Below, piece after piece: positions 1-15,972 of a stretch of 50,517 nucleotides of DNA. Both the position numbers and the translations under genes were made by a program. Source of the DNA: Trueperaceae bacterium (GTDB taxonomy: Bacteria > Deinococcota > Deinococci > Deinococcales > Trueperaceae); contig CP070651.1 in assembly GCA_020354625.1 (NCBI GenBank), forward strand, positions 4,216,651-4,267,167. Direction: 5' to 3'. A model generated the notes under the pieces. That model saw nothing but the letters and a program-made list of their open reading frames with translations, was not told the origin of the DNA and searched no databases. Positions within the stretch are counted from its first letter, which is position 1, and every line of letters starts with the position of its first letter.

Positions 1-108
1 ACCAACCCCGATACCGACGGCGACGGCCTTCTTGACGGCGTCGATCCGGACCCGACCAACCCCGATACCGACGGCGACGGCCTTCTTGACGGCGTCGATC
101 CCAATCCG
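1..108 (+). repeat. 54-bp in-frame tandem repeat encoding calcium-binding units
   Basis: Bases 1-54 and 55-108 are nearly identical (they differ near the 3' end of the unit, GGACCCG against CAATCCG). The 54-bp period encodes 18 residues with DxDxDG-type ligand spacing. The array probably continues upstream of the window. High identity at DNA level points to recent expansion or homogenisation. Confidence 0.9.
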
Positions 109-849
109 ACGGATCCCACCAATGCCCCCCTGATCGTCTCCTTCTCCGCCGATCCCGCTACGGTGACCGATCTTGCCGGTACGACCCTGTCCTGGGACGT
201 TCAGGGTGACGGTCCCATCAGCATCAGTCTCGATAACGGCATCGGAACGGTTACCGGAACCAGTCTCCAAGTCGATCTCGTCGTGACCAAGACCTATACG
301 CTCACGGCTACGAACGCCAACGGTACTTCTACTGCTGATGTCACCGTTACCGTCGACCTCACGGACATCGATCTCTCTGGCCAGGATCTGACCGATGCCA
401 AGCTAGCGGGGGCAGATCTGAGCGGTGCAAACCTCGCCGGCACCAACCTCACCAATGCCAGGTTGGCAGGTACCAACCTCAGCGGTGCCAACCTGACCAC
501 AGCGATCCTGATCGATGCTCATATGGAAGGTGCCAATCTTAGCGGTGCGACCCTGAACGGTGCCGACCTCACCAACGCCAAGTTGGAAGGCGCCGATCTG
601 ACCTGGGCCGAGGCCAACAACGCCACGTTCTTCAGCTCTCATATGAGGGATGTCGATGCGAGCAACGCCGAGTTTACCTTTGCCGACCTTAGGACGGCGC
701 TCATGACCGAAGCCAACTTCACCAACGTCGATCTGAGCGGTGCGGACCTCACGGGCACCACGCTCGACGGCGTCATCTTCGACGGTGCCACCTGGGTTAC
801 CGGCGAGACCTGCGCAGTTGGATCGGTTGGGAGTTGCGTCATCCCGTAG
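1..849 (+). CDS. Surface protein C-terminus: TSP3-like calcium repeats, Ig-like domain, pentapeptide repeats (5' partial)
   Basis: The reading frame is open from base 1, so the gene begins upstream of the window. The first 36 residues are two copies of an Asp/Gly-rich unit (DTDGDGLLDGVDP), as in thrombospondin type-3 calcium-binding repeats. About 60 residues of beta-rich sequence follow, ending in TYTLTATNANGTSTADVTVTV, which looks like a bacterial Ig/PKD-type domain. From about base 376 to 790 there is a run of pentapeptide repeats (A-D/N-L-S/T-G/N), which fold as a right-handed beta-helix. The protein ends shortly after, with two Cys in the tail and no sorting motif or transmembrane helix. 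Domains are seen directly; an extracellular location follows from the calcium repeats. The ligand is unknown. Confidence 0.85.
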   Translation, partial: TNPDTDGDGLLDGVDPDPTNPDTDGDGLLDGVDPNPTDPTNAPLIVSFSADPATVTDLAGTTLSWDVQGDGPISISLDNGIGTVTGTSLQVDLVVTKTYTLTATNANGTSTADVTVTVDLTDIDLSGQDLTDAKLAGADLSGANLAGTNLTNARLAGTNLSGANLTTAILIDAHMEGANLSGATLNGADLTNAKLEGADLTWAEANNATFFSSHMRDVDASNAEFTFADLRTALMTEANFTNVDLSGADLTGTTLDGVIFDGATWVTGETCAVGSVGSCVIP

Positions 850-887
850 CCTCATTCGACGTAGCTCTCCCTCGATAGCCTTTCTGG

Positions 888-916
888 TAGGCGGCCCCCA
901 CGGCCGCCTATCTTAT
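888..916 (+). terminator. Intrinsic terminator of the surface-protein gene
   Basis: A perfect 9-bp stem TAGGCGGCC/GGCCGCCTA (888-896 with 902-910) has a 5-nt loop and is followed by TCTTATTTTC. It lies 39 bp after the stop codon. Confidence 0.85.
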
Positions 917-974
917 TTTCTCTCGGCCTGATTCGGCTACACCGACGTATGCACAAGGCACTGTATGTTTTCTG

Positions 975-1009
975 GCAGGCAGCTTTCAAAGCTGCCTGCT
1001 CCTTTTTTT
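975..1009 (+). terminator. Second strong intrinsic terminator
   Basis: A 12-bp inverted repeat, GCAGGCAGCTTT (975-986) and AAAGCTGCCTGC (988-999), is followed by TCC and seven T. It lies 65 bp beyond the first terminator. It may back up read-through, or end a short transcript starting between the two. Confidence 0.85.
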
Positions 1010-1378
1010 GCCTATCGATTCGAATCTGGGTAGGACGATTGAGTAAGCCTATCTCAACTGGGTTGCTGTGAACTTGATCGTGGTGGGATCGCGGAAGCAG
1101 GAACGCAAGTGGTGACTGCTCCGTTCACTCGTTACTGACAATCGAAACAACCTCTTCTAGGATAGGTATCGAACCTGCACGTCTGCAGGGAACCTTAGGA
1201 AGCTTTGAACTCTGTTCCAAAGTTGGGCGCTCGGGGCAGATGGAGCGAGTAGCGCAACCGACCTGAGTGGTGGTATCGCGTAGGAGAGGTATGCTCTGAG
1301 GCAACCTCCCTAGAAAGCATCAGGTTGTTGGTCGGGGTGTGCCGGGTACGCTCCGAGCATCGCGAAGGAGAGAGAGCT
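1010..1378. other. Gene-free stretch upstream of the metalloprotease
   Basis: No ORF with a plausible start and no RNA gene is visible. The stretch must hold the promoter of the metalloprotease gene, but I see no convincing -35/-10 pair. The leftward ORF at 1195-1455 overlaps the start of the real gene and has no recognisable product. Confidence 0.5.
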
Positions 1379-2719
1379 TTGTCGACCAGGTTGTGCTTTA
1401 GCTTGATGGCCCTTAGCCTCCTATTGTTGGTGGCTTGTGGCGACCTCGTAGACAAACCTGACCCCCAAACAGCAGTCCTCGAAGATCATGAAGACAAGGG
1501 ACTCGTCTTTCATGGGCTGGCTCCGGGAGAATCCGGTTCTCTCTGCGAGGGGATGTTCGCGATCCAATCCGAGGATGAAAGACCACTCTGTTCTCACGGT
1601 CCGGATCCGGCGCCAGACGGGGTCGACATCACCAGGCCGTTGTCGCTGAGCGAGCTACAGGGCGAGTTGAGCGTCACGGCTTCCAGCGACATTCCCTGTA
1701 TCGGTGATGGGGTCAGCGGCAACCGGGTTCAGGCCGTGTACGTGGTCGCTTCGGATAAGGCCGACCGCTTCAGTGAAGTCGAACCGCTGATCGAAGGTTG
1801 GGCCGCCCAGGTATCGCAGATGTTCCAAGACAGCGCCGCGCAGGTCGGCGGCGAGAGCGACGTGCGTTGGGTCACCGACTCTGCTTGCGACCTCGACGTG
1901 CTGCACGTCGTAGTGTCTCCAGGTGGCGACGATGACTTCGCGAGTACGGTGAGCGAGATGAAAGAGCTCGGCCACAGTAGTCCAGAAAGAAAATATCTCA
2001 TGTGGGTCGATGCGCGCGTCTACTGCGGCATCGCTCAGATCTACGGCGACGATCGCCCTGGCCAGGACAACTACAATAACGGTCGCACGGCGATGTTCGC
2101 TCGGGTCGACGAGGGCTGCTGGAACCAGACCCATAGTGTGGCTGCTCATGAACTGGTGCACAGCCTCGGCGGAGTACAGCTTTCGGCGCCACACGCAACC
2201 GGCGGCTACCACTGCACCGACGAGTACGACCGGCTCTGCGTTCGTGACGGCTCCGATGTAGTGCTCACCTACGATTGCCCGTCAGGTAACGAAGGCATGC
2301 TCGACTGCAACAACGACGACTACTTCCATCCGAATCCGCCGGCGAACTCGTACCTCGACACCCACTGGAACGTCGCCCACAGTAGTTTCCTGACATCGGG
2401 GTCTTCTGCCTATTCCTCGACGTCCACCGCCACGGTGGAGTTCGGCTCGAGCCTCAACGAACAGAACGGCTCGCGCAGCTTCACCATCACCCCGGGGGCC
2501 GGCACCGTGGATGCCGAACTCACCTTCAAATGGCGGCGTGGTGTGGACGCTCCGATCCTGACCCTGGAGATTCTCGAGGGGGAGACCGTGATCGCCGGCG
2601 CCACCGGTGGTACCCCTGTCAGCCTCTCACAAGAGGTGGCCGGCGGTCGAATCACCCTCAGGGTGAGTGGTGCTGATCGAACAGCGTTTACGTTGACAGT
2701 CGGTTACCCGACGCCGTAG
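1379..2719 (+). CDS. Secreted lipoprotein zinc metalloprotease (HELVHSLG family)
   Basis: The 446-residue product starts at TTG 1379, 8 bp after AAGGAG; an upstream TTG at 1325 is in frame but lacks a ribosome site and would bury the signal peptide. Residues 1-20 form a lipoprotein signal ending LLVAC, so the mature protein is probably lipid-anchored. Zinc motif HELVH lies at residues 257-261, followed by SLGGVQ, APHATGGYHC and TDEYD. As I recall, that layout is shared with a family of mostly actinobacterial secreted proteins carrying HELxHxLGAVQ...GHCTDE. Several Cys in this segment may form disulfides. The last ~90 residues are a beta-sandwich-like domain resembling pre-peptidase C-terminal modules. 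Likely role: extracellular proteolysis. The substrate is unknown. The gene stands alone. Confidence 0.85.
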   Translation: MSTRLCFSLMALSLLLLVACGDLVDKPDPQTAVLEDHEDKGLVFHGLAPGESGSLCEGMFAIQSEDERPLCSHGPDPAPDGVDITRPLSLSELQGELSVTASSDIPCIGDGVSGNRVQAVYVVASDKADRFSEVEPLIEGWAAQVSQMFQDSAAQVGGESDVRWVTDSACDLDVLHVVVSPGGDDDFASTVSEMKELGHSSPERKYLMWVDARVYCGIAQIYGDDRPGQDNYNNGRTAMFARVDEGCWNQTHSVAAHELVHSLGGVQLSAPHATGGYHCTDEYDRLCVRDGSDVVLTYDCPSGNEGMLDCNNDDYFHPNPPANSYLDTHWNVAHSSFLTSGSSAYSSTSTATVEFGSSLNEQNGSRSFTITPGAGTVDAELTFKWRRGVDAPILTLEILEGETVIAGATGGTPVSLSQEVAGGRITLRVSGADRTAFTLTVGYPTP

Positions 2720-2900
2720 GTGAAGAGCTACGCTCTCTTTTTACGCCGAACTCGGTACGAACCTTCCGGTTGGCCGGGCGACCGCGTTCACCGGCTCTGT
2801 TGAGTTTCCCATTCGATGACAAAGGCCTCGAACAGCGCTTCGGTCGCTTCCAAGATCGCTCGCTCGAGCCGGTTCTTAGCCGGTGTGGAGATGCCTGGTG

Positions 2901-3176
2901 CTACGGGGCCATCTGCCTGAGGATCTCGAGCCCTTCTTCGGCGGTCACGGCGGGGTGCACCGAAATCTCGAAGTGATCGTCCCAGGCTGCTGTCATCGCC
3001 ATCATGGGTGCGACGCTATCGGTCTCGGTGATCAGGACCACCTGGGGGTTGGGAGACTGGAGCCAGTATTCGCCAATGACTTCGACCCCGGGAGGGAACT
3101 CCCACTCCAGCCGTCTCGGTGAACGCTCTGTTGCGGTGCTGCCCGGTTTCGATTTGAGCAAGGTTACAAACAACAT
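2901..3176 (-). CDS. DUF3303-like small protein
   Basis: This 91-residue protein starts at ATG 3176 behind AAAGGGG. The layout matches DUF3303-type ferredoxin-like proteins: a first strand MLFVTLL, a central PPGVEVIGEYW segment, a strand QVVLITETDS, the AAWDDHFEISVHP region and a short final helix EEGLEILRQM. The family has no established function. It is monocistronic, with the metalloprotease convergent on its 3' side. Family assignment rests on pattern and length, not on a search. Confidence 0.65.
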   Translation of the reverse strand: MLFVTLLKSKPGSTATERSPRRLEWEFPPGVEVIGEYWLQSPNPQVVLITETDSVAPMMAMTAAWDDHFEISVHPAVTAEEGLEILRQMAP

Positions 3177-3519
3177 TGGATTCCCCTTTCTTGGCCACTA
3201 TGCGTAGCCACGACCGATGGCGCTGCACCTCGACAAACTAGGTCAGAAGTTGCGCGTGCAGTTACTTATCAGTATCCCGCAGGGGGACTCCATTTGGCAA
3301 GGGAGTTAGGGATCATCCACCCACCATGTGCTGGTTTTCTACAAAGTGTGAGGTGAAGACTCGTGCCAGGGGAGGGCTGCGGTCTTGCCTCGGGTTTGTA
3401 CTCGGAGACGCTGGTGATCAAGCCTGAAGAGCGTATAGGCAAACGCTGGGGCACTGAGCTTGATGAGTTCCCCCAAACCCTATCGTGCTCACTTGTCACG
3501 TCCCTGACTTTGTGTTTGT
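3177..3519. other. Gene-free stretch between the DUF3303-like gene and tRNA-Lys
   Basis: I see no credible gene. Short ORFs here either run into the tRNA or have no recognisable product. The part next to 3177 should carry the promoter of the DUF3303-like gene. No poly-T terminator is evident downstream of the tRNA. Confidence 0.45.
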
Positions 3520-3595
<76 letters not shown>

Positions 3596-3697
3596 GTGCG
3601 ATCTCGCTCCCGTTAGTTTATCATCTCGATAGTAGGCGTGCACAGAAGGTCTGTCGCCTGTAGCGTACGTTTACCTCAATCCGATGTGGGGGTCGAG

Positions 3698-4036
3698 ATG
3701 GCATTCGATGAGGGCTTGGCCGAGCGGATTCGTGAGATTGTGGAAGACTGGGCAAACGTTTCCGAGAGGAAGATGTTCGGCGGCTTGGCCTTTATGCAAG
3801 AGGGTCACATGTTCGTGGGCATCATCGACGACGCCTTGATGGCACGCGTCGGCGCGGAGCAGTACCGAGAAGCGCTGTTGAGGCCGCATGTTCGCGAGAT
3901 GGACTTCACGGGTCGGCCCATGAAAGGGTATGTGTACGTCGACCCTGAAGGTGTCGATTCCGACGAGGAGCTCACGAGCTGGGTAGAGCTGGCCTCACAA
4001 TTTGTGTCGACCTTGCCGCCCAAAAAGCCTACCTGA
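3698..4036 (+). CDS. TfoX N-terminal domain protein
   Basis: The 112-residue product starts at ATG 3698 (MAFDEGLAERI). A start at 3638 is in frame, but its first 20 residues do not look like protein. The segment RKMFGGLAFM...HMFVGI followed by LMARVG is the hallmark of the TfoX N-terminal domain. KGYVYVDPEG and a C-terminal helix complete the fold. In gamma-proteobacteria TfoX/Sxy controls competence, but stand-alone TfoX_N proteins elsewhere have no proven role, so the name should not be read as a competence function. The gene sits between tRNA-Lys and a diguanylate cyclase, 141 bp before the latter. Confidence 0.85.
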   Translation: MAFDEGLAERIREIVEDWANVSERKMFGGLAFMQEGHMFVGIIDDALMARVGAEQYREALLRPHVREMDFTGRPMKGYVYVDPEGVDSDEELTSWVELASQFVSTLPPKKPT

Positions 4037-4177
4037 GTACGGCCCGTACGGAGTTCGAGACCCGGGTGTGCTGATGCATGGCTCCTCGGAACGGGTGGAT
4101 GCATGGTAGAGCGAGCAGCATCGGTGTTCGGCTCTGCCGATAGGGTACACTGCCGCCAGGATGGAGATCCATTGACG

Positions 4178-5242
4178 ATGCGCCGGAGCCCGTCTCCTTC
4201 GGTTGAGGCCGCTAAGCGGAAGGCATATATCGCGGTGTTGCCTGTGGGTGGTGCCGTGGCACTTTTGATGTGGCAGTTGGCACGCCGTGAAGGGGGAGCC
4301 GCTGTAGTAGATCTCATCGGGCTCCCGCTCTTGGCCCTGTTAGCGGCTGGATTGACGGTGGGGTTCTTGGTGAAGCGGAGCGGATTCCGCTCTCTCGAGT
4401 ACCCTCTGGTGATCGGTCCTGCCATCTATTTTTTTCTGAATCTTTTGACCAAACGGGGAGCCGAAGCCGATGGGATTGCGACCTTGGCGGGGATCGGGTA
4501 CTGGTTACCGGCGCTCTTTACCTTGTCGTTTATGGTCTTCGGGGTGCGGTTTGGTGCGGCCTTTTCGCTGGTGTTGTTCGCTTTGACCGTGTTGGCCGGT
4601 ACCGGTGCATTGCTGAAGACGTCCGAGGCTTCGACCGGCGACCTCATCACTCTGTTGCAAACCTATAGTGGCAACGGGCTTTTGATCTTGTTGCTGATCA
4701 CGCTGGCGATCATCATAAGGTTGCAGGCTCAGTATGTGGTGGAGATGGAGACTGTCGCCAACACCGACGCCTTGACCGAACTCAGTAACCGCCGGCACCT
4801 GGAGCATCTCATCGAGGAGGAGCGTGCCCGGGCCAGCCGCTACGATCGTAGCTTCAGCGTCATCCTCTTCGATCTCGACCACTTCAAACGCATCAACGAC
4901 CTCCACGGGCACCAGGTCGGTGATGAGGTGCTAAAGGGTGTACGCACCCTTTTGGTTGAACACATTCGTCAGGTCGATACCTTGGGACGCTGGGGGGGGG
5001 AAGAGTTTCTCTTGGTGGTTCCGGAGATGCCACTCGATCCGTCGAGGTTGCTGGCGGAGCGCTTGAGGATGGTGATCGAGCGCCACGTCTTCGAGAGAGC
5101 GGAGCGGTTGACGGCGAGTTTTGGAGTGGCGGAGTATCAGCCGGGCGATACGGTGGAGACGCTCACCAAACGGGCGGACGAAGCGCTCTACCGTGCCAAG
5201 GCGCAAGGGCGAAACCTGGTGGTGGTAGAGGCTCGAATGTAG
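4178..5242 (+). CDS. Membrane-anchored diguanylate cyclase (GGDEF)
   Basis: The 354-residue enzyme makes c-di-GMP from two GTP. The start at ATG 4178 follows GGAG at 4163-4166; TTG 4172 is an alternative. The N-terminal ~190 residues hold about six hydrophobic segments forming a membrane sensor module of unknown ligand. The C-terminal ~165 residues are a GGDEF domain with DALTELSNRRH, the metal-binding region LFDLDHFKRIND and the signature GGEEF. The product-inhibition site RxxD (RQVD) lies exactly five residues before the signature. The enzyme is therefore predicted to be active and feedback-inhibited. A hairpin with terminator character follows the gene. Confidence 0.93.
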   Translation: MRRSPSPSVEAAKRKAYIAVLPVGGAVALLMWQLARREGGAAVVDLIGLPLLALLAAGLTVGFLVKRSGFRSLEYPLVIGPAIYFFLNLLTKRGAEADGIATLAGIGYWLPALFTLSFMVFGVRFGAAFSLVLFALTVLAGTGALLKTSEASTGDLITLLQTYSGNGLLILLLITLAIIIRLQAQYVVEMETVANTDALTELSNRRHLEHLIEEERARASRYDRSFSVILFDLDHFKRINDLHGHQVGDEVLKGVRTLLVEHIRQVDTLGRWGGEEFLLVVPEMPLDPSRLLAERLRMVIERHVFERAERLTASFGVAEYQPGDTVETLTKRADEALYRAKAQGRNLVVVEARM

Positions 5243-5330
5243 CGTGTAAGAATTTTGTAAGAGTTGGCTGGATATATATACTGTCGAGGAAACGAGGAAG
5301 ACCTCCCAATTCCTCATCCCATTCTCTTCT

Positions 5331-5367
5331 GAAAAAGGTTTCGTGCCTCCCTCGCGAAGCCTTTTTC
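5331..5367 (+). terminator. Hairpin terminator after the diguanylate cyclase
   Basis: GAAAAAGGTTTCG (5331-5343) pairs with CGAAGCCTTTTTC (5355-5367) over 13 bp with one G-T wobble and an 11-nt loop. The A-run and T-run are inside the stem, as in bidirectional terminators. Confidence 0.7.
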
Positions 5368-5382
5368 ATTTGATACCTCATA

Positions 5383-5582
5383 TGACATGAAATCCTGTTG
5401 ATCGATCGGATTTTCAGCCACTGTTTCCTTCGTGTACTGCGTTTTTGCTTGGCTCGGCCGTACTAGGCCAAACCACAGGGAGCCATATGAAACCCTGCTG
5501 ATCAACCTGTCTCCGAACCTTGCGTCTTTCGTATGCCACGCGGTCTGTTCGGTTTGGTAGGGCCGGGCCAAACCGTAGGAGT
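5383..5582. repeat. Imperfect 100-bp tandem duplication, intergenic
   Basis: Two diverged copies lie at about 5383-5482 and 5483-5582, with a period of exactly 100 bp. Landmarks recur at the same offset: TGAAAYCCTGYTGATC at 5388 and 5488, and GGCCAAACC at 5466 and 5566. In copy 2, GGTTTGG and CCAAACC form a 7-bp stem; in copy 1 this stem is degraded. There is no convincing ORF. It could be an untranslated leader or small structured RNA upstream of the gene at 5679, or a relic duplication. Confidence 0.7.
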
Positions 5583-5678
5583 CCATAGGCATCGTCTCGT
5601 CATGTTTCCCCGCGATGCGTAGAAATGCATACGTTTGCTGTCGCCTGCTTGCTACGATGGAAGTTGCGAAAGGATACC

Positions 5679-5984
5679 ATGAGCGATTTTCGAATCAGAG
5701 CCAAAATAACTGGGGGGGGAGACAAGGATCTGCCAGACTATTTGAGGCAGAAGATTCGATCGAGCGTGTCGTTCGTTCGCTCCAAGGCGCGTCAGAAGGG
5801 GCTCGAAACAGCGCTCGAGTACGAACTCTTCGAGCTCGATCAGCGGGTCAATGATGCGATCAATCAGGCGTCGCCAAACCTTGCCAGAGATGTGCTCGAC
5901 TACGAACGTCTACTCGTCAGGCGGATTGAGAACCTGGCAGCCAGAGAGTCTAGAGAGAAACCCTCTTCGAAGAAGAAAAGCTGA
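5679..5984 (+). CDS. Hypothetical protein, 101 residues
   Basis: The start at ATG 5679 is chosen because AAAGGA lies 5 bp upstream. I do not recognise the family. The product is highly charged and mainly alpha-helical. A short basic strand FRIRAKITGGG is followed by a long helical region rich in Arg, Glu and Leu (residues ~20-90) and a Lys-rich tail. There is no signal peptide, membrane segment or Cys, so it is cytoplasmic. Its size and charge would suit an RNA- or DNA-associated or coiled-coil accessory protein, but nothing in the sequence decides this. It is monocistronic, with the SDR gene convergent downstream. Confidence 0.6.
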   Translation: MSDFRIRAKITGGGDKDLPDYLRQKIRSSVSFVRSKARQKGLETALEYELFELDQRVNDAINQASPNLARDVLDYERLLVRRIENLAARESREKPSSKKKS

Positions 5985-6096
5985 AGTCGGGGCAGTTACT
6001 GCACAAAACAGTTGTTGGGTCGATGTCGGTGCCGACGGCCTCTATCTGCGGAAAGTGCTTGGCTGACCTTGCAGGTGAGCACAGCGTCGATTAGGC

Positions 6097-6870
6097 TCAA
6101 GCCGGGTTGACGACCATGAGGCCACCGTCGACCACCAAGGTTTGACCGGTGATCATAGCCGCGCCTTGCGAACAGAAGAAACCGATCACTTTGGCGATAT
6201 CTTCGGGTGTGGCGATGCGGCGTAAGGGGGTCTGCTCGGCGTACCGGTCGTGCAAGGTCTGCCAGCCGATCCCCATGACATCTGCGTAGAAGGTACCGGA
6301 ATCCGAAGCGATGAGGCCGGGGCAGACCCCGTTGACGGTGATGCCCTGGGGACCGAGCTCGCAGGCCCAGTAGCCCACCAGGGTTTCCAAGGCGGATTTG
6401 GCGGCGCCGAGCACGCCGTGTTTGGGGAGGTAGCGATGTGCATCGAGGCCAGAGACAGCGACGATCCGCCCCCGGTCCATGAGACTGGCCGCCCGTTGCA
6501 CTCCCTGTACAAAGGCGTCGAGGGTGATGGCGAAGGTCCGGTGCAGGTGGTGCGGTTTCACGTCGATAAGATCTTTGAAGGCGGTGGAAGCGGCATTGGC
6601 GACAAAGATATCGAGTTTGCCGAAGTGCTCATGGATCTGGTCGAACATCGCATCGATCTGATCGGGGTCTTCGAGATCGGCTCGGATAACCAGCGCCTCG
6701 GTACCTAAGTCACCGATCTCCTCCGCGAGGGAGCGGGCCTGTTCGGGGGTGTTGCGGTAGTTGATGACGACCTTGGCACCCCGCTGTGCCAGGTAGCGTG
6801 CGGTGGCACGTCCCACGCCGCGCGAGGATCCCGTGATGAGGGCGACAGAATCGGTGAACTCCGTTTGCAT
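6097..6870 (-). CDS. FabL-like short-chain dehydrogenase with His in place of the catalytic Tyr
   Basis: The 257-residue protein starts at ATG 6870 behind GAGGAGG; the longer frame to 7152 has no ribosome site. The cofactor motif TGSSRGVG (13-20) and the ANAAS motif (91-95) show an NAD(P)-binding SDR. The region around residues 140-161 (SGLDAHRYLPKH...AAKSALE) aligns without gaps to enoyl-ACP reductase III (FabL), as I remember it. FabL uses Tyr151 and Lys158 (Y-x6-K). Here Lys158 is kept but residue 151 is His, and no classical YxxxK is present. Likely role: an enoyl-ACP reductase-like or other NAD(P)H oxidoreductase with altered catalysis, or a non-catalytic paralogue. The gene diverges from a PfkB kinase. 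Confidence 0.85.
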   Translation of the reverse strand: MQTEFTDSVALITGSSRGVGRATARYLAQRGAKVVINYRNTPEQARSLAEEIGDLGTEALVIRADLEDPDQIDAMFDQIHEHFGKLDIFVANAASTAFKDLIDVKPHHLHRTFAITLDAFVQGVQRAASLMDRGRIVAVSGLDAHRYLPKHGVLGAAKSALETLVGYWACELGPQGITVNGVCPGLIASDSGTFYADVMGIGWQTLHDRYAEQTPLRRIATPEDIAKVIGFFCSQGAAMITGQTLVVDGGLMVVNPA

Positions 6871-7057
6871 GTTGCCTCCTCGACATGCTGAGCTGCGAAC
6901 AGTTTTGCATACGGCGCTGGGCTGTATGTTGATCAAACGGGTTGGATCGATGGGGTGGCCTGTCGTGGCAATAAAACGGCTATAGCGCGCAGTCACAAGC
7001 TGGAAGATGCCGTAGTGAGGGCTTGCTAGCGCGGGAGAAATTGGTATAAGAGAGTGG

Positions 7058-8218
7058 ATGAAGCACGTTGAAGTCGTGGTGGCCGGGCACTTGTGTCTCG
7101 ATGTGATTCCGGATATTCCGTATCGGCTGTCTTTGGAACCGGGTAAGCTCAACTCGGTAGGAAAGGCGGGATTTGCTCCGGGTGGCGGCCTGGCAAACGT
7201 CGGCCTCAGTCTGGCGAGGCTCGGGGTAAATGTGGGGCTTATGGGGAAGCTCGGGCGCGACGGCTTTGGACAGGTGTTGATGGGGCTCCTGACAGAGATC
7301 GTTCCGGGGGCGGCGGAGACCCTGAAGATTTCCGATGATCAGGGCACGTCCTATACCTTGGTGATCAGTTCGCCCGGCGTGGACCGTATCTTCTTGCACC
7401 ATCCGGGGTGCAACGACGCCTTCGAAGTAAAAGATATCGATCTCGAGCTGGCCGGCCAGGGCTCGATCTTCTACTTCGGATACCCACCGCTCATGAGGGC
7501 CTTTTATCTCGATGGAGGTATAGGGTTGGCAGAACGTTTCGAGGCGCTCAGGGCACGTGGGGTCACTACCGTGTTGGATATGGCGCTGCCGGACCCGGAG
7601 AGCCCGGCAGGGAAGGTCGATTGGCGTGCTTTTCTGGCACGGGTCCTCCCCCACGTAGACCTCTTTACGCCGAGCCTCGAGGAGATGCTTTTCATGCTCG
7701 AGCGTGAGGTGTTCGATGCCGGGCTGTGGCGTGAACATGTGGCTCCTGGAGCGTTGGAGGCAGGACTCGCGACGGAACTTTTGTCGATGGGTCCGGCGGC
7801 GGTGGTGCTCACGCTGGGAGAGCGGGGCCTCTACCTCCGAACCGCCGGTCACGAGCGTCTGGTTGAGACGGCGCTCGCCTCTCAGCACTGGGCTCGCAGG
7901 GAGCTGTGGGCGCCGATCTTCGTCGTCGATGTCGAGGGGACGACCGGGGCCGGAGACGCGGCGACCGCGGGGTTGATCACGGGCCTTCTCAACGACTACC
8001 CACCGGAGCGTGCGCTTACCTTGGCGGCAGCGGTGGGTGCTTGTTGCGTTGAGGCGGCGGACGCGACGAGCGGTATCCGTTCGCTGGCCGATACGTTACA
8101 TAGGGTCGAAGCCGGCTGGGTTCGCGCTTTCGACCGATCGGAAGTCGACAACTGGCGCCGGTTGCCGTCTGGGGCCTACCGCGGCCCCGGCGATTCTGGG
8201 CAGCCACCGGTCCGGTGA
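7058..8218 (+). CDS. PfkB-family carbohydrate/nucleoside kinase
   Basis: The 386-residue protein is an ATP-dependent small-molecule kinase of the ribokinase/PfkB superfamily. The N-terminus VAGHLCLDVIPDIP and the PGGGLANVGLSLARLG motif (about residues 45-60) form the substrate pocket seen in ribokinases. The signature TTGAGDAATAGL near residue 295 supplies the anion hole and the catalytic Asp. At 386 residues it is longer than typical ribokinases (~310), with the extra length between the two motifs and at the C-terminus. The substrate cannot be told from sequence. It is divergent from the FabL-like SDR across a 187-bp gap that must hold both promoters. Confidence 0.88.
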   Translation: MKHVEVVVAGHLCLDVIPDIPYRLSLEPGKLNSVGKAGFAPGGGLANVGLSLARLGVNVGLMGKLGRDGFGQVLMGLLTEIVPGAAETLKISDDQGTSYTLVISSPGVDRIFLHHPGCNDAFEVKDIDLELAGQGSIFYFGYPPLMRAFYLDGGIGLAERFEALRARGVTTVLDMALPDPESPAGKVDWRAFLARVLPHVDLFTPSLEEMLFMLEREVFDAGLWREHVAPGALEAGLATELLSMGPAAVVLTLGERGLYLRTAGHERLVETALASQHWARRELWAPIFVVDVEGTTGAGDAATAGLITGLLNDYPPERALTLAAAVGACCVEAADATSGIRSLADTLHRVEAGWVRAFDRSEVDNWRRLPSGAYRGPGDSGQPPVR

Positions 8219-8365
8219 GGTTTGTGTTTCGGCGCCGGCCGGAGGGTCAAATGTGGGTGAAGGGGTACGATTTTCCCACCACCCGATGCCCCCACCTCGA
8301 GTACGATAGGGGGCGGAGGGATACGTGAGGGAAAAACAGGTGCAGGGCTCTGGAGGGTGGTGCTG

Positions 8366-9526
8366 ATGGTTAGAGATCACGTGGTGGAGTTGATGAGCCC
8401 CGTCGATCACGATGTATTCCCCTCAGCGACGGTTCAGGTGGCGCTCGAGCTCGGAATTCCTGTAGAAAAGTTGGCTCAACTCCTGAAAAAGGGCCCTGGG
8501 ATCGTGACGAAACCGACCCGCAAAGAGAAGGCCGAGAAGGTTGCTCAGGTGATGCGGGAGGCGGGGTTGGATGTCCAGGCCGTCAGCGTTCAGTTGGGTA
8601 GTCTGCTTTTGGTGTCGGAGCCTGTGGTTGGGGAGATGATGGCCCAGGCCGAGCCGATTCGGTTGAAAGATACGATGGATCAATCGCTGCCAGGGGGGCA
8701 GCCGCTGAATGTGTACGCGCAGAGTGGGGCCTCCGCGAGCTACGGTGATGAGCCGAGCACATCTGGTCCAGAGGGAGAGCCATCGATCCAAGCGGATCTC
8801 GGCGTGTCGGCGTCGACCGCAGAGGTCCGAGCACCGGAATACGGGCGGTCGTCACGGCGTGTGGAGCAACGTGTGCGAGCGCTCCATGAGATGACGTCTC
8901 CTAGGCGCCAGGCGGAGCCGGTGCGTAGGCGCTGGTTGCTCCCTGCCTTGATGGGCACCTTGTTGGTTGCGGTCGTGCTCTCGGTTCCCCTGCTCGTACC
9001 AGGTGTGTGGCAGGATTTGAGAACCTCCCGTGAGCCACTACCGAGTTTCGACGAGGGCGTAGCGGCCTTTCTGCAAGAGGACTACCGAGCGGCTGCCGAG
9101 GTGTGGCGGAGTTTAGCAGAAGCGGGTCACCAACAGGCCCAGTTCCGTCTGGCTGAGCTGCACCGCCAGCAACTGATCGACCCGGCCGAGGCGGCCGAGG
9201 CTACTCGCTGGTACCGTGCAGCCGCCGAGCAGGGTCACGCCGATAGCCAGTTCATGCTCGGCGTGGCCTATTTCGATGGGGAGGGTGTCGGGCAGGACTA
9301 TCTCAACGCGGCCAAGTGGTTTCGTCAGGCGGCCGAGCAGGATCATGCGGAAGCCCAGTTCAACTACGGCATCATGCTCATCTACGGTCAAGGGGTTCCT
9401 CAGGATTATATCGAGGCGACCGAGTGGCTCGAGAGCTCTGCTCAGTTGGGCGTGGTGGAGGCGCAGGCGTTCCTCGATTCGTTGCGAGATATCGAGGGGG
9501 AGCCTGCTCCTGGTGCTGCGGAGTGA
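8366..9526 (+). CDS. Membrane-anchored Sel1-repeat protein
   Basis: The start at ATG 8366 lies 9 bp after GGAGG; an in-frame GTG at 8357 touches that ribosome site. The 386-residue protein has three parts. Residues ~15-75 are a small alpha/beta domain (PTRKEKAEKVAQVMREAGLD) that looks like the L7/L12 C-terminal or ClpS-like fold. A low-complexity linker and one transmembrane helix (WLLPALMGTLLVAVVLSVP) follow. The C-terminus carries at least three Sel1-like repeats (AAEQGHADSQFMLGVAYFDG and relatives), alpha-alpha hairpins used for protein-protein contacts. The N-terminal domain would be cytoplasmic and the repeats extracytoplasmic. Probably a scaffold or adaptor; partners are unknown. Confidence 0.85.
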   Translation: MVRDHVVELMSPVDHDVFPSATVQVALELGIPVEKLAQLLKKGPGIVTKPTRKEKAEKVAQVMREAGLDVQAVSVQLGSLLLVSEPVVGEMMAQAEPIRLKDTMDQSLPGGQPLNVYAQSGASASYGDEPSTSGPEGEPSIQADLGVSASTAEVRAPEYGRSSRRVEQRVRALHEMTSPRRQAEPVRRRWLLPALMGTLLVAVVLSVPLLVPGVWQDLRTSREPLPSFDEGVAAFLQEDYRAAAEVWRSLAEAGHQQAQFRLAELHRQQLIDPAEAAEATRWYRAAAEQGHADSQFMLGVAYFDGEGVGQDYLNAAKWFRQAAEQDHAEAQFNYGIMLIYGQGVPQDYIEATEWLESSAQLGVVEAQAFLDSLRDIEGEPAPGAAE

Positions 9527-9632
9527 GGCAAGCGCCTTTTTTCTCCTTGCCCATATACTCCGGGGTTGCACGAAGGCTTCTCTGGGATAGGGTCTGGGCC
9601 AGCGGTCACGAGGCCGCGGGTATGGGGTGAGC

Positions 9633-11507
9633 TTACACGTTCAGGTAGGTGCTCGACAGTTGAGAGGCAGAGAGGGGTGGGCTGAAGTAGAAGCCCTGTA
9701 GCCAGCGAGCACCTTCCCAGTAAAGAAAATGAGCCTGGGCATCGGTTTCGATGCCTTCTGCGACCACCGAGAGCTCGAGCACCTGCGCCATGGCGAGGAT
9801 GGTCTTGACCAGAGTGGTGTTGCGCCGGTTTTCGGGGACGTCCCGGAGAAAGCTACGGTCGATTTTGACGATATCGAAGGGGAGATCTTTGAGGGCGCCG
9901 AGGTTGGAGTATCCGGTGCCGAAATCGTCGATAGCGAGGTTCAAGCCGAGCTCCGACAGGGCGTTTGCGAGGCGTATGTTATCGCTGCTGCGCTTCATGG
10001 CAAAGCTTTCAGAGACGTCGAGAACCACATTTTCCGGGACCGCTGATGACGCGACCAAGGCCTCTTCGAATAGCGTGAGAAACCCGGGTTGTTCGAGCTG
10101 TTTGCATGATAGGTTGATCGATAGTTGCAGCTCGGGGTGCTCCTCGTTCCAGATCGAGAGTTGTTTCATCGCGGTCTTGAGCAACCAGATCTCCATCTCG
10201 ACGATCAGACCGGTCTTCTCGGCCACGGGGAGGAATTCGGCTGGGCGGATGGTTCCGTGTTCGGGATGCTGCCAGCGCATGAGCGCTTCGATTCCGGCCA
10301 AACGGCGACCTCGGGCGTCGAAGAGCGGCTGGTAGTAGACCTCGAGTTGGGCCTTTGGCAGGGCGTGTTTGAGGTCGGTTTCGATCTGTGAGTGGACAGC
10401 TCGATGATGGCTGAGGTGTTGGTCGAAGACCGCATAGCGGTTTTTCCCCGTTCGTTTGACATGTTGTAGGGCGTAATCGGCGTTGACGATGGTCTTGTCG
10501 GGCTCGTCTCCTCGGGTGCCGAAGGCGATGCCGATGCTGGTGCTGATGGTGACGGCTCCGCCGCTAAGGTGGAACGCTTGTCGGAGCTTGGCGAGGACCC
10601 GCTTTGCAACCGTTACGGCATCTTTTGAGGAACCAACCTGGTGGAGCAAGATGGCGAATTCGTCTCCGGCAAGCCGGGCGGCAACATCGTGCGGCCTGAT
10701 GCACCTCTGCAACCTCTTGGCCGCTGCGGTGAGAAGTTGGTCGCCCACCGCATGTCCGTAGGTGTCGTTGACGTTTTTGAAGCCGTCCAAGTCGAGATAC
10801 ATCACCGCGTAATTCATACTCTTCCCGGCGACCATCGTCAATTCCTCGAAGAAGGCGTGCCGGTTGGGGAGCTTGGTGAGGGTGTCGTGCTGGATCTGGT
10901 AGTCGAGCTCTTGTTGCCGCCTCTTGAATTCACTGACGTTGGAAAGAGAGCTGAGGACGGCGTAAGGGCGGGTTTCGCCTGCTCGTAGGAGAGGCTTACT
11001 GGTTACCTCGATCCAATTCAGTTGGCCGGCCGGTCCGTATACGCCCATCACCTTGCCATCTTGTACCGTGCCCGTTCTAAGTGCCAGCACAGGGGGGAGC
11101 TCATCGGGGGGTATCGGTGTGCCGGTTTCGTCGATGATGTGAAGGGTTGTTGGCGCTAGCTCTGTCCCGGAGAACCAGAGCAGCTCCTTGGTGCTGCGGT
11201 TGGTTGCCAGGACTTTCAGGTCTCGGTCTTGCAACAAGATACCGATATCGAGACTTTCGAAGACGGTGTGGAAGGTGTTGATGACAGTGTGGGGGTGAAC
11301 ATCCGCTGCGATCGAGTTGCTGTGATCTTTAAAGGGATTGCCCGGGTCTCCGCCCTCGAAATTCAAGGGCTGGAGCGAGGGGTCGGCAGCGGTGATCAGG
11401 CTGTCAGCTCCTGCATGGGGGTGGAGTTCTGTGTCTGGTGCCTTGTGGTTTTTCATAGCGATGCAAGGTGGAAAGAACACCGACTCTTGGGGTGCCTCTA
11501 GTTGCAC
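9633..11507 (-). CDS. PAS-GGDEF-EAL c-di-GMP signalling protein
   Basis: This soluble protein of 624 residues (GTG start; ATG 11456 is equally possible because neither has a clear ribosome site) has a PAS-like domain at ~75-195. The GGDEF domain (205-365) has signature AGDEF at 280-284 and an RxxD inhibition site (RPHD) five residues before it. The first Gly of the signature is Ala, which often lowers but need not abolish activity. The EAL domain (375-624) has EAL at 407-409, NLS, DDFGTG at 527-532, KIDRSF and AEGIET, so phosphodiesterase activity is likely. The usual LExTES stretch reads LDVSES, a conservative change at a metal-ligand position. Net output cannot be predicted. It is convergent with the Sel1 gene. 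Confidence 0.93.
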   Translation of the reverse strand: MQLEAPQESVFFPPCIAMKNHKAPDTELHPHAGADSLITAADPSLQPLNFEGGDPGNPFKDHSNSIAADVHPHTVINTFHTVFESLDIGILLQDRDLKVLATNRSTKELLWFSGTELAPTTLHIIDETGTPIPPDELPPVLALRTGTVQDGKVMGVYGPAGQLNWIEVTSKPLLRAGETRPYAVLSSLSNVSEFKRRQQELDYQIQHDTLTKLPNRHAFFEELTMVAGKSMNYAVMYLDLDGFKNVNDTYGHAVGDQLLTAAAKRLQRCIRPHDVAARLAGDEFAILLHQVGSSKDAVTVAKRVLAKLRQAFHLSGGAVTISTSIGIAFGTRGDEPDKTIVNADYALQHVKRTGKNRYAVFDQHLSHHRAVHSQIETDLKHALPKAQLEVYYQPLFDARGRRLAGIEALMRWQHPEHGTIRPAEFLPVAEKTGLIVEMEIWLLKTAMKQLSIWNEEHPELQLSINLSCKQLEQPGFLTLFEEALVASSAVPENVVLDVSESFAMKRSSDNIRLANALSELGLNLAIDDFGTGYSNLGALKDLPFDIVKIDRSFLRDVPENRRNTTLVKTILAMAQVLELSVVAEGIETDAQAHFLYWEGARWLQGFYFSPPLSASQLSSTYLNV

Positions 11508-11607
11508 TCTGAGGTTACACCGCTTCTTCTTACGCGGTTATGACAGATGGGGTAGATGATGGACGGTCTTGGGTGAGCGTGGGCGGGCGCCGCGACGTGC
11601 TAAGGCG

Positions 11608-12936
11608 TCATCGGCGGAGCGGATCTCGGGGTGCAGGGAGATCGCTGGGTCGGCGGCTGAGTTGCTTGGCAGCTTCCAGGTAGCGTGCGCGGGCTGCTGC
11701 TATGTCGATCAGCGGAGAGACGGGTTCGGGGTTGCCCCCGGACTCGGGGTGCCAGCGTCGTAACCAAGACCCCTCGGGATCGTGTTTTGTGGCTTGTGTG
11801 ACGAGATTGAACACCCTGAAGTAAGGGGCTGCATCGACCCCGAGCCCGCCGGCCCAGTGCCAACCGCCAAGGTTGTTGGCCGTGTCGCCGTCGAGAAGCC
11901 ACTCTTTGAAGATCTTCTCACCCCACTGCCAAGGCAAGAGCAGGTGTTTGACGAGGAACTGGGCCACGATCATGCGGGGACGGTTGCTTATCCAGCCGGT
12001 CGTTTTGAGTTCCCGCATGGCCGCGTCGATGACCGGGATGCCGGTTTTCGCCCGGCACCAGGCCTCGAACAGCTCAGGGTCGTTTTGCCAGGGGAGGTCG
12101 TTCCAGCGACGATCGAATGCCTCGGTGCGCATGTGGGGATAGTGGTAGAGCAGATCGGCCATGAAGTCGCGCCACAGGAGCTCACGTATCCAGCTCTCGG
12201 CCCCTGGACCACCCCTCTTTGCTGCTAAAGAAGCGGCTAGGCGCGGTGATAAAACGCCGAGGGTGAGGTAGACAGACAACCTGGAGACCCCACTACCGTC
12301 GAGGCCATCTCGTTCGAGGTGATAGTGAGCCAAGCCGCCGTTGAGAAAGCGTTCCAGCAGCTCGAGCGCCTTGCTCTCGCCGGCATCTGGAAGGGGGATA
12401 TCGCTCGCTTCTTCAGGAATCGTGCCGAGTTCCGCGGTTGTAGGGCTTTCGATCTTCGTGGGCGAGGGGAGGGGCTCGGGTAGTGGACTCTTTTGGGCGC
12501 GTTTGCGAAAAGGTGTATAGACCGTATAGGGAGTACCGTCGTCTTTGGAGACGGTACCCGGCTCATACAGATAACAGCCCGGATGCCAGTAGAGGGGTCT
12601 ATGGAGCGACGCCTCTGTCTTCTGGTCACGGAGTAAGCCGTAGGGGGTGTAACTGGCCAGCGCGTGCACGGCCTCCGCTCCGGTTGATGCCACCAGCTCG
12701 GGGAGTACGTTCCAAGGGGTGCCTTTTCTCACCAGGAGCGTGCCTCCCCGCTGTCGATAGCTTTCCCGGAGCGCCTGAACATTGGCGTAAAACCAGGCTC
12801 GCCGGCGAGCAGAGGTGCCACTCAAGATAGACTCGTCGAGGACGACAATCCCCAGGACGGGGCCACGTGAGAGGGCGGTGGTGAGCGCGGGGTGGTCGTG
12901 TATCCGGAGGTCGCCACGGTGCCATACGAGATGCAT
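11608..12936 (-). CDS. phr: Deoxyribodipyrimidine photolyase
   Basis: The 442-residue flavoprotein repairs UV-induced pyrimidine dimers using light. The N-terminal alpha/beta antenna domain begins MHLVWHRGDLRIHDHPAL, where VWHRGDLR is the family's opening strand and turn. The C-terminal FAD-binding domain has the expected series: TGWISNRPRMIVAQFL, LPWQWGEK, DGDTANNLGGWHWA (containing the Asn near flavin N5) and DAAPYFRVFN. Length and motifs fit class I CPD photolyases and related cryptochromes. A Pro replaces the usual Leu in the NRLRM stretch. Repair rather than signalling is inferred. It diverges from the PhyH gene. Confidence 0.93.
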   Translation of the reverse strand: MHLVWHRGDLRIHDHPALTTALSRGPVLGIVVLDESILSGTSARRRAWFYANVQALRESYRQRGGTLLVRKGTPWNVLPELVASTGAEAVHALASYTPYGLLRDQKTEASLHRPLYWHPGCYLYEPGTVSKDDGTPYTVYTPFRKRAQKSPLPEPLPSPTKIESPTTAELGTIPEEASDIPLPDAGESKALELLERFLNGGLAHYHLERDGLDGSGVSRLSVYLTLGVLSPRLAASLAAKRGGPGAESWIRELLWRDFMADLLYHYPHMRTEAFDRRWNDLPWQNDPELFEAWCRAKTGIPVIDAAMRELKTTGWISNRPRMIVAQFLVKHLLLPWQWGEKIFKEWLLDGDTANNLGGWHWAGGLGVDAAPYFRVFNLVTQATKHDPEGSWLRRWHPESGGNPEPVSPLIDIAAARARYLEAAKQLSRRPSDLPAPRDPLRR

Positions 12937-13137
12937 GTTTCACGCTACCGCCGTGGCATCTTTGCAACTGTAGCGTGGCCCTCAACGCGAGTGCAGAGGC
13001 TACCGAATCGGTTACCGGCGAGTCTCGGGTTCACCGAACGTCGCAAGGTCTGGTTCGAGGTATGGTAAGGCGACGGTTGGGTGAATCGGGAGCGGATTCG
13101 TCCGATCGAAGTTGGGAAGGTGTTGGAGGCACCACGT

Positions 13138-14019
13138 ATGACCAGAGCCCGATACTCTACACTCAGCGAAGAACAAGCCCAGCACTTTCTCGATAAGGGG
13201 TATGTCGTTATCAAAGGGTGCCTGAGCCGCGACGTGGCGGCCAAATGGTCGTCGTACGCTTTCGAGCGTTTGGGGTGTGATCCCGAAGACCCCGCCACCT
13301 GGCGTGAAGAGATCGTGTGGATGAACCGCGAGCACGTTGCTCGGGTTGAATCCTTAGCGCCCAGAGCGTGGGGTGCGATTTGTGACGTAGTAGGCGGAGA
13401 AGACCGCATCGACGACAGGGTGATGCAGATCGAGTCGAAGCATTTCACGACCATCAATTCGTTCGAATGGTCCGATGCCTTCATCGTGAACTTCCGGCGT
13501 GGAGCTGACGAAGTTTGGGTACCCCCATCGGCTGCTGCTGGGGGTTGGCACAAGGATGGATCCTTCTTTCGGCACTTTCTCGACAGCCGTGAACAAGCCC
13601 TCCTAACCGTGGTCTACTGGTCCGATGTGGCGCATAAGGGTGGGGGCACGTTCATCGCGCCGGATTCCATCAAACATGTGGCCCGCTTCCTTCGCGACCA
13701 CCCAGAAGGGGTAGAACCCGGCGGATTCGGGCACCTGATCGAGTCGTGCAGTGAGTTCGTCGAGTTGACCGGAGAGGCGGGTGACTTCATCATCTTGCAC
13801 CCATTCATGCTACACGCCTCATCCAACAACCATTCCGGTAGAGTGCGTGTGATGAGCAACCCTCCGATCGTTTTGAAGGAGCCGCTCAACCTAAACCGGA
13901 GCGATCCCGAAACCTTTTCGCTCCTCGAGCGAGCCACCCTTCAGGCACTCGGGTTGAAACGATTCGACTTCAAACCGGCTGCGCCACGGGACGAACGTTG
14001 GACCGTGTTTGGTGGGTAG
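13138..14019 (+). CDS. Phytanoyl-CoA dioxygenase (PhyH) family protein
   Basis: The start at ATG 13138 is fixed by GGAGG 8 bp upstream, giving 293 residues; the longer frame from 13081 has no such site. The Fe(II)/2-oxoglutarate site is readable: GWHKDG gives the HxD pair, HPFMLHASS gives the distal His, and SGRVRVMSN gives the Arg that binds the 2-oxoglutarate carboxylate. YVVIKGCLSRD near the N-terminus is the usual PhyH opening. It therefore probably hydroxylates or oxidatively modifies a small molecule. PhyH proteins act on very diverse substrates and no neighbour identifies this one. Confidence 0.88.
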   Translation: MTRARYSTLSEEQAQHFLDKGYVVIKGCLSRDVAAKWSSYAFERLGCDPEDPATWREEIVWMNREHVARVESLAPRAWGAICDVVGGEDRIDDRVMQIESKHFTTINSFEWSDAFIVNFRRGADEVWVPPSAAAGGWHKDGSFFRHFLDSREQALLTVVYWSDVAHKGGGTFIAPDSIKHVARFLRDHPEGVEPGGFGHLIESCSEFVELTGEAGDFIILHPFMLHASSNNHSGRVRVMSNPPIVLKEPLNLNRSDPETFSLLERATLQALGLKRFDFKPAAPRDERWTVFGG

Positions 14020-14093
14020 CTTGTATGCAAGGGGTGAAGCGAGTCAAGGACTCGACGGCTGTCCTCTTCTCGATGTGTTAGCCTCTCTGTTGC

Positions 14094-15122
14094 ATGGCTG
14101 AGCTGCTTCACCTTTCGTCGCTCTCCAGCTTGGAGAAGATCCCAGCTACGGCGTTGCCAGAGTTCTCGCCCCCACCGCGGTTTCATGAGACACATTTTGA
14201 GAGCTATCGGCCTCAGCACCCTTCGCAGGGGCTGGCCCGGCAGTTCACCGAGACCTTCATCGGCCAAATGAGGGTCGCGGAGCGTTTTAGATGGCCTTGG
14301 CAAAAGTCGCGCCAGGGGAAGGGTCTTTACCTCGATGGAGGTTTCGGGGTCGGCAAAACCCACTTGCTGGCGTCTGCCTACCACGCCTCTCCGGAAGCTG
14401 CCAAGGCCTATCTATCGTTTCAGGAGTTGGTGTACCTCATCGGGGTACTCGGCATGGCGACTGCCAAGGAGGAGTTGGGTCACACCGCTCTCCTCTGTAT
14501 CGACGAGTTCGAGTTGGACGATCCCGGTAACACCCTGATCGTCAAAACCTTTTTGGCCTACGTATTCGAACAGGGTGGAAGCGTCATCACCACATCCAAT
14601 ACGCCGCCGGAAGCCTTGGGGAGAGGCCGCTTCAACGCTTCAGATTTTGCTCGCGAGATCCAGAGCATCGCCCAACACTTCGAGGTCGTGCCGATCGATG
14701 GACCAGATTATCGTCACAGGGATCATCTGGCAGGTCTTTTCGGGGAACGGGAGCTCGAGGATCTGATCGAGCGTGAGGAGAGTTTCTGGCCCAAGCTCGA
14801 GGCCGGTTGGGGAGAGCTTTTCGCCTTCCTGGAGTCGGTTCATCCGATCCGTTATCGCGATCTCCTCAGCCGAGTCGGGATCCTCTACCTCAGGGGAGTC
14901 GATACGATACCCGATCAGAATAGCGCTCTGCGTTTCGTTCACTTTATCGATAAACTCTACGATCTGAACGTCGGCCTGCGGGCTTCGGGCGAGATCCCCT
15001 TGGCGGAGCTATATCACCCGAGTTATCGCAACAGCGCCTACACAAAAAAACATTTCCGTTCGTTGTCGCGACTATCGGAGCTGCTCGAGGAGCCGCACCG
15101 TTTGCAGCCGGATGTGATATGA
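14094..15122 (+). CDS. zapE: ZapE/AFG1-type ATPase
   Basis: The 342-residue AAA+-like ATPase has Walker A GGFGVGKTHLL, Walker B LLCIDEFELDD and the sensor region ITTSNTPPEALGRGRF, which is characteristic of the AFG1/ZapE family. In E. coli ZapE modulates the FtsZ ring; mitochondrial AFG1 assists membrane-protein turnover. The downstream segment with HFIDKLYDLNVGLRASGEIP is also typical of the family. Length fits (E. coli ZapE about 375). It lies 74 bp after the PhyH gene on the same strand and could be co-transcribed. A pair of hairpins follows. Confidence 0.9.
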   Translation: MAELLHLSSLSSLEKIPATALPEFSPPPRFHETHFESYRPQHPSQGLARQFTETFIGQMRVAERFRWPWQKSRQGKGLYLDGGFGVGKTHLLASAYHASPEAAKAYLSFQELVYLIGVLGMATAKEELGHTALLCIDEFELDDPGNTLIVKTFLAYVFEQGGSVITTSNTPPEALGRGRFNASDFAREIQSIAQHFEVVPIDGPDYRHRDHLAGLFGERELEDLIEREESFWPKLEAGWGELFAFLESVHPIRYRDLLSRVGILYLRGVDTIPDQNSALRFVHFIDKLYDLNVGLRASGEIPLAELYHPSYRNSAYTKKHFRSLSRLSELLEEPHRLQPDVI

Positions 15123-15128
15123 CGTTTT

Positions 15129-15208
15129 GCTATCTGGCCTGGGTGTGAAAGACCAGATAGCACCAATGAGAGGCAACGAGTGCTGGAGCGTAAGAGCTGC
15201 AGCACTCG
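15129..15208. other. Two perfect 9-bp hairpins between convergent genes
   Basis: GCTATCTGG/CCAGATAGC (15129-15137 with 15153-15161) and CGAGTGCTG/CAGCACTCG (15177-15185 with 15200-15208) lie side by side between zapE (+) and the spondin-domain gene (-). Neither is followed by a T-run on either strand, so they are not classical intrinsic terminators. They may protect 3' ends or separate the convergent transcripts. Confidence 0.7.
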
Positions 15209-15222
15209 TCGTTGGGGTGAGA

Positions 15223-15900: not shown

Positions 15901-15945
15901 GTTTCTCCCTTCGCTTCTCAAGCTACGAAACGACTCTCATAGCGG

Positions 15946-15972
15946 TATCACGAATTGTCACCAAAGGTTCAC
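15946..15972. promoter_or_regulatory. TATCAC-type repeats upstream of the spondin-domain gene
   Basis: TCAC occurs at 15948-15951, 15958-15961 and 15969-15972, spaced 10 and 11 bp; the first is in GGTATCACG. The same GGTATCAC word occurs upstream of the response-regulator gene. PhoB/OmpR-type regulators bind direct repeats with about 11-bp period, so this is a candidate response-regulator box. The last repeat overlaps the kinase stop codon. Confidence 0.45.

Follow-up and report, generated by a model that had tools for sequence, protein, structure and literature searches.

A FabL-like SDR of a Trueperaceae bacterium with histidine facing the catalytic tyrosine of FabL

RESULTS

The gene and its surroundings

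The DNA analysed here, referred to as the window, is a stretch of 50,517 nt from the genome of a Trueperaceae bacterium. Its minus strand carries at positions 6097-6870 an intact ORF of 257 aa with an ATG start and a preceding GGAGG, and the GC content of this gene at codon positions 1, 2 and 3 (0.65, 0.45 and 0.76) resembles that of its neighbours, so that it reads as a normal coding gene. A PfkB-family kinase gene (7058-8218) is divergent from it across a common intergenic region (6871-7057), and genes for GGDEF, TfoX-N and Sel1-repeat proteins lie near by; no same-strand partner was recognized in the vicinity. The window also contains a photolyase/cryptochrome-type gene (11608-12936), a gene for a phytanoyl-CoA dioxygenase-like protein (13081-14019; PhyH, 41.6 bits) and, at 163-849, a gene whose product has by eye many five-residue repeats of the A(D/N)L(S/T) type and is presumably a pentapeptide-repeat protein. 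The genome itself consists of one 4.29 Mb contig, in which 53 SDR-like matches were found. It includes a FabI with the motif YNMMGVAK, for which the best PDB match is 1ulu (E 1.3e-95), an enoyl-ACP reductase from Thermus thermophilus.

An SDR-fold reductase closest to FabL

The product of the 6097-6870 gene is an SDR-fold reductase, and FabL is its closest relative of known structure. Bacillus subtilis FabL (3oic) is the top PDB match in phmmer searches (E 2e-46), with 40% identity across 245 residues and an alignment that is ungapped from residue 139 past 158. The FabL model NF005975 is also the best NCBIfam model, although the score of 242.3 bits falls below its cut-off of 328, and both adh_short_C2 (200.6 bits) and adh_short (142.9 bits) of Pfam score above their gathering thresholds. 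The AlphaFold2 model has a mean pLDDT of 95.9 and a pTM of 0.93; anthrol reductase CbAR and FabL lead the Foldseek matches of this model, and FabL leads those of VIA-align (3oid, Z 38.4, rmsd 1.3, 245 aligned), with many other SDRs reaching nearly the same VIA-align score. By the tests applied the protein lies outside FabL: its predicted fold is that of FabL, but its score is too low and it has neither the Tyr-x6-Lys nor the Asn113 of that enzyme.

The motifs of the SDR superfamily, namely TGxxxGxG, an NAG-like motif (with NAA for NAG) and the active-site Lys, are all present (Table 1). FabL Lys158 faces Lys158 of the window protein, which has His-x6-Lys where FabL has Tyr-x6-Lys. A preliminary description had stated that the two proteins align here without gaps, with His151 facing Tyr151 and the Lys kept, and the phmmer alignment to 3oic confirms each of these points. 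It had also been right that the classical YxxxK is missing; the full signature (Ser plus YxxxK) is absent, with Gly141 at the Ser position and Leu154 at K-4. The alignment was inspected for a different residue at the catalytic Tyr position, and no other Tyr occupies it.

Table 1. Features of the SDR gene in the window and loci of a separate HxxxK clade
Feature	Position	Strand	Evidence or conservation
SDR-fold reductase gene, FabL branch, His151 type	6097..6870	-	PDB, AlphaFold2, VIA-align
TGSSRGVG dinucleotide-binding motif, residues 13-20	6811..6834	-	T13, G14, R17, G18 and G20 conserved in both types
NAASTAFK, residues 92-99: NAA cofactor-binding motif and TAF(K/R) segment of the group	6574..6597	-	
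Thr116, facing FabL Asn113	6523..6525	-	Asn in 0/20 His type, 41/47 Tyr type
Gly141, SDR catalytic Ser position	6448..6450	-	His type Gly 19/20, Ala 1; Tyr type Ser 45/47
Asp143, codon GAT	6442..6444	-	Asp in 20/20 His type; Gly in 46/47 Tyr type
Tyr147, codon TAC	6430..6432	-	Tyr in 5/20; others W, A, V, I or M
His151, codon CAC, facing FabL Tyr151 (K-7)	6418..6420	-	His in 20/20 group members
Leu154, classical SDR Tyr position (K-4)	6409..6411	-	Leu in 20/20 (partly chosen)
Lys158, retained SDR lysine	6397..6399	-	20/20 and 47/47
HxxxK clade loci	L040, L046-L048, L054, L055, L059, L060, L066, L069, L077, L086, L090-L092, L094, L106		

A rare but widely spread group

Among the relatives collected, and with the window included, 20 distinct proteins from 20 genomes or records carry His151. 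They derive from Halobacteria, Actinomycetota, Myxococcota and Chloroflexota as well as from the window genome, and two haloarchaeal plasmid proteins that share the residue are approximately 40% identical to the window SDR. In the genomes sampled, proteins of this type were found in 10 of 296 from the class of the Actinomycetota bin, two of 292 from the class of Halorientalis, two of 397 from the order of Pseudonocardia, two of 235 from the phylum of the Myxococcota bin, one of 111 from the window genome's own order, and at least one of 400 from the Chloroflexota (the phylum of locus L031), where 52 of the 400 genomes matched and 30 of the 52 matching places were typed. The remaining two of the 20 are from Natrinema (a plasmid record) and Pseudonocardia sp. 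73-21. The His151 type is therefore rare, yet it is spread across archaea and bacteria.

The set was assembled from plasmid matches, a scan of genome contigs and profile searches of the sampled genomes in which 6 to 11 candidates were scored per genome. The first eight proteins came from the plasmid matches and from the scan with NAA[VS]TAFK and RGA[KRT]VV[VI]NY, by which the TAFK segment was partly chosen; all 20 were picked with HG.L..AK, by which Gly152, Leu154 and Ala157 were partly chosen, and Asp143, Gly141 and residue 116 were not. The comparison class consists of 47 distinct FabL-like Tyr proteins, including FabI of the window genome, and the contrast at residue 151 (His in 20/20, Tyr in 47/47) is the definition of the two classes. 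Neither class contains identical copies or classical SDRs, and rows in which a His does no more than align close to residue 151 (the Paenibacillus type, HxxxK) were excluded.

The invariance of His151 is accompanied by linked changes at residues 141, 143 and 116 (Table 1), states that are common by descent and do not represent independent events; this supports the earlier suggestion of a neofunctionalized or catalytically altered enzyme. N92, A93 and A94 are conserved in the His and Tyr types alike, Lys or Arg is found at residue 99 in 19 of the 20 His proteins, and residue 39 in the group is Arg (19/20) or Lys (1/20). Residue 118 is basic (Arg or Lys) in 42 of the 47 Tyr proteins and Asp in the window SDR. 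Tyr147, proposed earlier as the nearest substitute for the missing Tyr, was rejected on account of its poor conservation in the group, and His145 was ruled out as a partner residue, being His in only 4/20. Overall, the His151 group gives the impression of a genuine lineage within an established enzyme family and not of a broken gene.

A search of 110 further genomes of the same order or phylum gave no other match to the window SDR at E <= 1e-45, so that acquisition from outside the phylum is likely and vertical inheritance within it is disfavoured, with losses being possible. A single-sequence scan of genome contigs, a search of viral contigs and a search at family level, which covered one genome, returned nothing useful. 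Our search of the open-access literature found no description of the His151 group. The family models indicate FabL or just an SDR for these proteins, and what sets them apart is therefore easy to miss.

Phylogeny

In a tree of 80 rows the 20 His proteins form one clade (99/97) together with an Asn-type paralogue from Halorientalis and a Tyr-type protein from Sulfobacillus (L029). The sister group of this clade is a set of ten Actinomycetota Tyr proteins, of which nine come from the order of Pseudonocardia and the other is L030, and the two nest together among the FabL-like sequences of the tree. An earlier tree of 167 rows, made by a quick method and containing 10 His proteins, gave the same grouping (SH-aLRT 94).

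The Sulfobacillus protein (L029:8001-8759; 46% identity), whose gene adjoins one for a BadH-like SDR, has Tyr151 and Gly143, yet also Gly141 and NAASTAFK. It is placed within the His clade with weak support (80/84), so that either one early retention of Tyr/Gly143 or one later reversion to it could explain its residues, and it is possibly an intermediate or a reversal. The paralogue from Halorientalis marina (L035:11742-12473, also L118) has Asn at residue 151, with two residues missing near 143, and is encoded in the same plasmid cluster as the His SDR of that organism.

A separate SDR clade of 17 rows (SH-aLRT 100 in the 167-row tree) is characterized by AHG(T/S)(A/S)K, in which His takes the place of the classical Tyr (HxxxK). 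Its members belong mostly to the Paenibacillaceae and their relatives, with a haloarchaeon and a member of the Ktedonobacteraceae also represented; one of them (L040) falls below every NCBIfam cut-off shown.

Gene neighbourhoods

An acyl-CoA ligase is encoded at 11 of the 20 His loci and an acyl-CoA dehydrogenase at six, counts that include self-matches at the loci that supplied the queries and to which several loci contribute only 3 to 6 kb. A BadI-like gene directly adjoins the His SDR at three of the 20 loci, lies within 5 kb at a fourth and is represented by a weaker match at a fifth. At L031, in a Chloroflexi bin, the His SDR comes after genes with top scores to the models for BadH (323.5 bits), a cyclohexanecarboxylate-CoA ligase (552), cyclohexanecarboxyl-CoA dehydrogenase (410) and BadI (375); these neighbours best match the BadH, AliA, AliB and BadI models, all below cut-off. 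A BadI-like gene overlaps the start of the His SDR at L032 and lies directly beside it at L191, a BadI/MenB-like gene is approximately 4 kb away at L177, and at L199 there is a weak BadI match (94 bits) at 1.2 kb. The haloarchaeal loci L022 and L178 encode a BadH-like SDR, a ligase and an acyl-CoA dehydrogenase. Partial linkage to aliA, aliB, badH and badI is seen in the relatives at L031, L032, L191, L177, L022 and L178, with the proviso that weaker BadH-like matches may be any SDR. At seven Tyr-type control loci nothing matched the ligase, BadI or acyl-CoA dehydrogenase, but L029, L042 and L045 among them gave BadH-like matches. The neighbourhoods of several relatives are suggestive of alicyclic acyl-CoA catabolism.

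The window SDR lacks this linkage. When fifteen proteins from the relatives' clusters were compared with positions 1-16000 of the window, only the His SDR matched (E <= 1e-15), and the same was true of the cluster queries at L193, L194 and L198, the last two being short contigs. At E <= 1e-50 the BadI model finds nothing in the window genome and a match in each of the other nine genomes searched, although it also matches in seven of the 14 control genomes, and its matches are fitted about equally well by MenB models.

DISCUSSION

We observe a predicted FabL-like fold, intact cofactor motifs, linked conservation around residue 151 and catabolic neighbourhoods in relatives, and the reading that we favour, at somewhat better than an even chance, is that the window gene encodes a working NADPH-dependent acyl-CoA reductase of the SDR superfamily, in a FabL-like branch of its own and with an active site of Asp143, His151 and Lys158; its chemistry and substrate are what we infer. 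The branch has exchanged the Asn, Ser and Tyr of the tetrad together, with the equivalent of Asn113 lost, Ser141 changed to Gly, Gly143 to Asp and Tyr151 to His, and with Lys158 alone kept. NADPH would be bound as in FabL, an acyl-CoA thioester, probably ring-bearing and either alpha,beta-unsaturated or beta-oxo, would sit over the nicotinamide, and hydride would be delivered to the beta carbon. His151 is proposed as the donor because the cofactor residues are intact, because the tetrad has lost its Asn, Ser and Tyr, because Asp143 and His151 never vary in the group and because residue K-7 of CbAR is part of the substrate pocket; it would supply the hydrogen bond or proton that Tyr151 supplies in FabL, connected via Lys158 and the ribose, and a putative pairing with Asp143 would hold or polarize it. 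The window copy would presumably do the same job as its clustered relatives. Several observations count against the acyl-CoA reductase reading: the window SDR has no pathway neighbours, in a genome with no BadI-like match, the known bad-ali pathway can do without a further reductase, and the Tyr/Gly143 protein of Sulfobacillus falls inside the His clade with weak support (80/84). A wider proposal, for which we would not claim an even chance, is that an SDR branch common to archaea and bacteria swapped Asn-Ser-Tyr-Lys for Asp143-His151-Lys158 in the service of a reductive step, as yet unassigned, that has alicyclic acyl-CoA thioesters as its substrates.

The neighbourhoods could also be read in favour of a beta-hydroxyacyl-CoA dehydrogenase or beta-ketoacyl-CoA reductase, in which His151 (with Asp143) would serve as a base acting on a carbonyl or alcohol substrate and not on a C=C bond. 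Several relatives have neighbours that encode hydroxyacyl-CoA steps (a BadH-like SDR, a hydratase, a 3-hydroxyacyl-CoA dehydrogenase), and ketone reductases such as CbAR are among the fold neighbours. We nevertheless regard this as rather unlikely, for some of the clusters already contain a BadH-like SDR, and the BadH-like SDRs at L022, L029 and L154 keep an ordinary YxxxK; moreover, the Tyr position that has been lost (K-7) is that of the enoyl reductases, and the position used in carbonyl reduction (K-4) is Leu in 20/20, a count partly chosen through HG.L..AK. A loss of redox chemistry altogether, leaving a protein that binds NADP(H) or acyl-CoA for regulation, or one that catalyses isomerization or C-C cleavage, would account for the disappearance of Asn, Ser and Tyr from the tetrad with only Lys158 remaining. 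The preliminary description had likewise entertained a pseudo-enzyme, but this is improbable given that the cofactor-binding residues and Lys158 are retained and that Asp143 and His151 are themselves invariant across deep branches, which argues for a chemical role.

FabL is both the best family model and the best PDB match, and SDRs with His for Tyr act as enoyl-ACP reductases elsewhere (PMC5006077), so that an ordinary enoyl-ACP reductase III of fatty acid synthesis in which Tyr to His is tolerated has to be considered. It seems very unlikely, in view of a score of 242 bits against a cut-off of 328, the absence of the equivalents of Tyr151, Asn113 and Ser141, the presence of a separate FabI in the genome and the location of the relatives in catabolic clusters. 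An error in the sequence at codon 151, which had been raised at the outset, or decay of the gene is a matter of negligible probability: CAC is one transition away from TAC, but the same His is present in 19 other distinct proteins, which refutes both explanations, and the ORF is intact with normal codon-position GC.

The SDR Tyr is a highly conserved catalytic residue, and a survey of over 500 SDRs yielded only four further enzymes in which the active-site Tyr is substituted (PMC4988501). A natural branch with His and changed partners allows the residue that governs the outcome of the reaction to be probed, and the substitution can be examined by mutating Tyr to His or His to Tyr. Should the connection with the pathway be borne out, an unassigned step would be added to the breakdown of alicyclic acids.

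Comparison with known systems

The bad-ali pathway is the metabolic system with which the relatives invite comparison, as the neighbours of some of them best match the AliA, AliB, BadH and BadI models. Five genes are reported as sufficient for the bad-ali conversion of cyclohexanecarboxylate (PMC9795900), a conversion that proceeds without such a reductase, and the window genome differs further in having no BadI-like gene. Since the route needs only five genes, a role of the His SDR in it would be that of an added step, for example the saturation of a ring double bond.

Eugenol synthase is without the SDR Tyr altogether. Replacement of the catalytic Tyr has precedents among SDRs. In isopiperitenone reductase, a plant SDR, Glu238 in place of the Tyr is reported to switch the enzyme from C=O to C=C reduction (PMC4988501); the window SDR is like it in the loss of the Tyr and unlike it in being bacterial and in having His instead of Glu. 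The 7-alpha-HSDH-like SDRs of Epsilonproteobacteria have His for the catalytic Tyr and complement an Escherichia coli fabI mutant (PMC5006077). In those enoyl-ACP reductases the His is at Y159/Y161 of 7-alpha-HSDH, whereas the window SDR has His at K-7 and Leu at K-4. We assume that Y159/Y161 corresponds to the classical K-4 position.

CbAR, an SDR of solved structure (7yb1, 7yb2, 8hfj), resembles the window protein in having a His at K-7 that faces the substrate pocket; His162 takes part in ligand recognition and Lys169 is catalytic (PMC9867772). Unlike the window SDR, CbAR keeps Ser151-Tyr165-Lys169, and its His helps to recognize the substrate instead of serving as the catalytic acid. FabL (B. 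subtilis 3oic/3oid; NF005975) remains the closest system; YX6K has been described for FabI and FabL, and the conserved Asn113 has been named as a feature (PMC5006077). The window SDR shares with FabL the fold, TGSSRGVG, NAA, Lys158 and the ungapped active-site segment, and departs from it in having His for Tyr151, Thr for Asn113, Gly for Ser141 and Asp for Gly143 (141 and 143 in window numbering).
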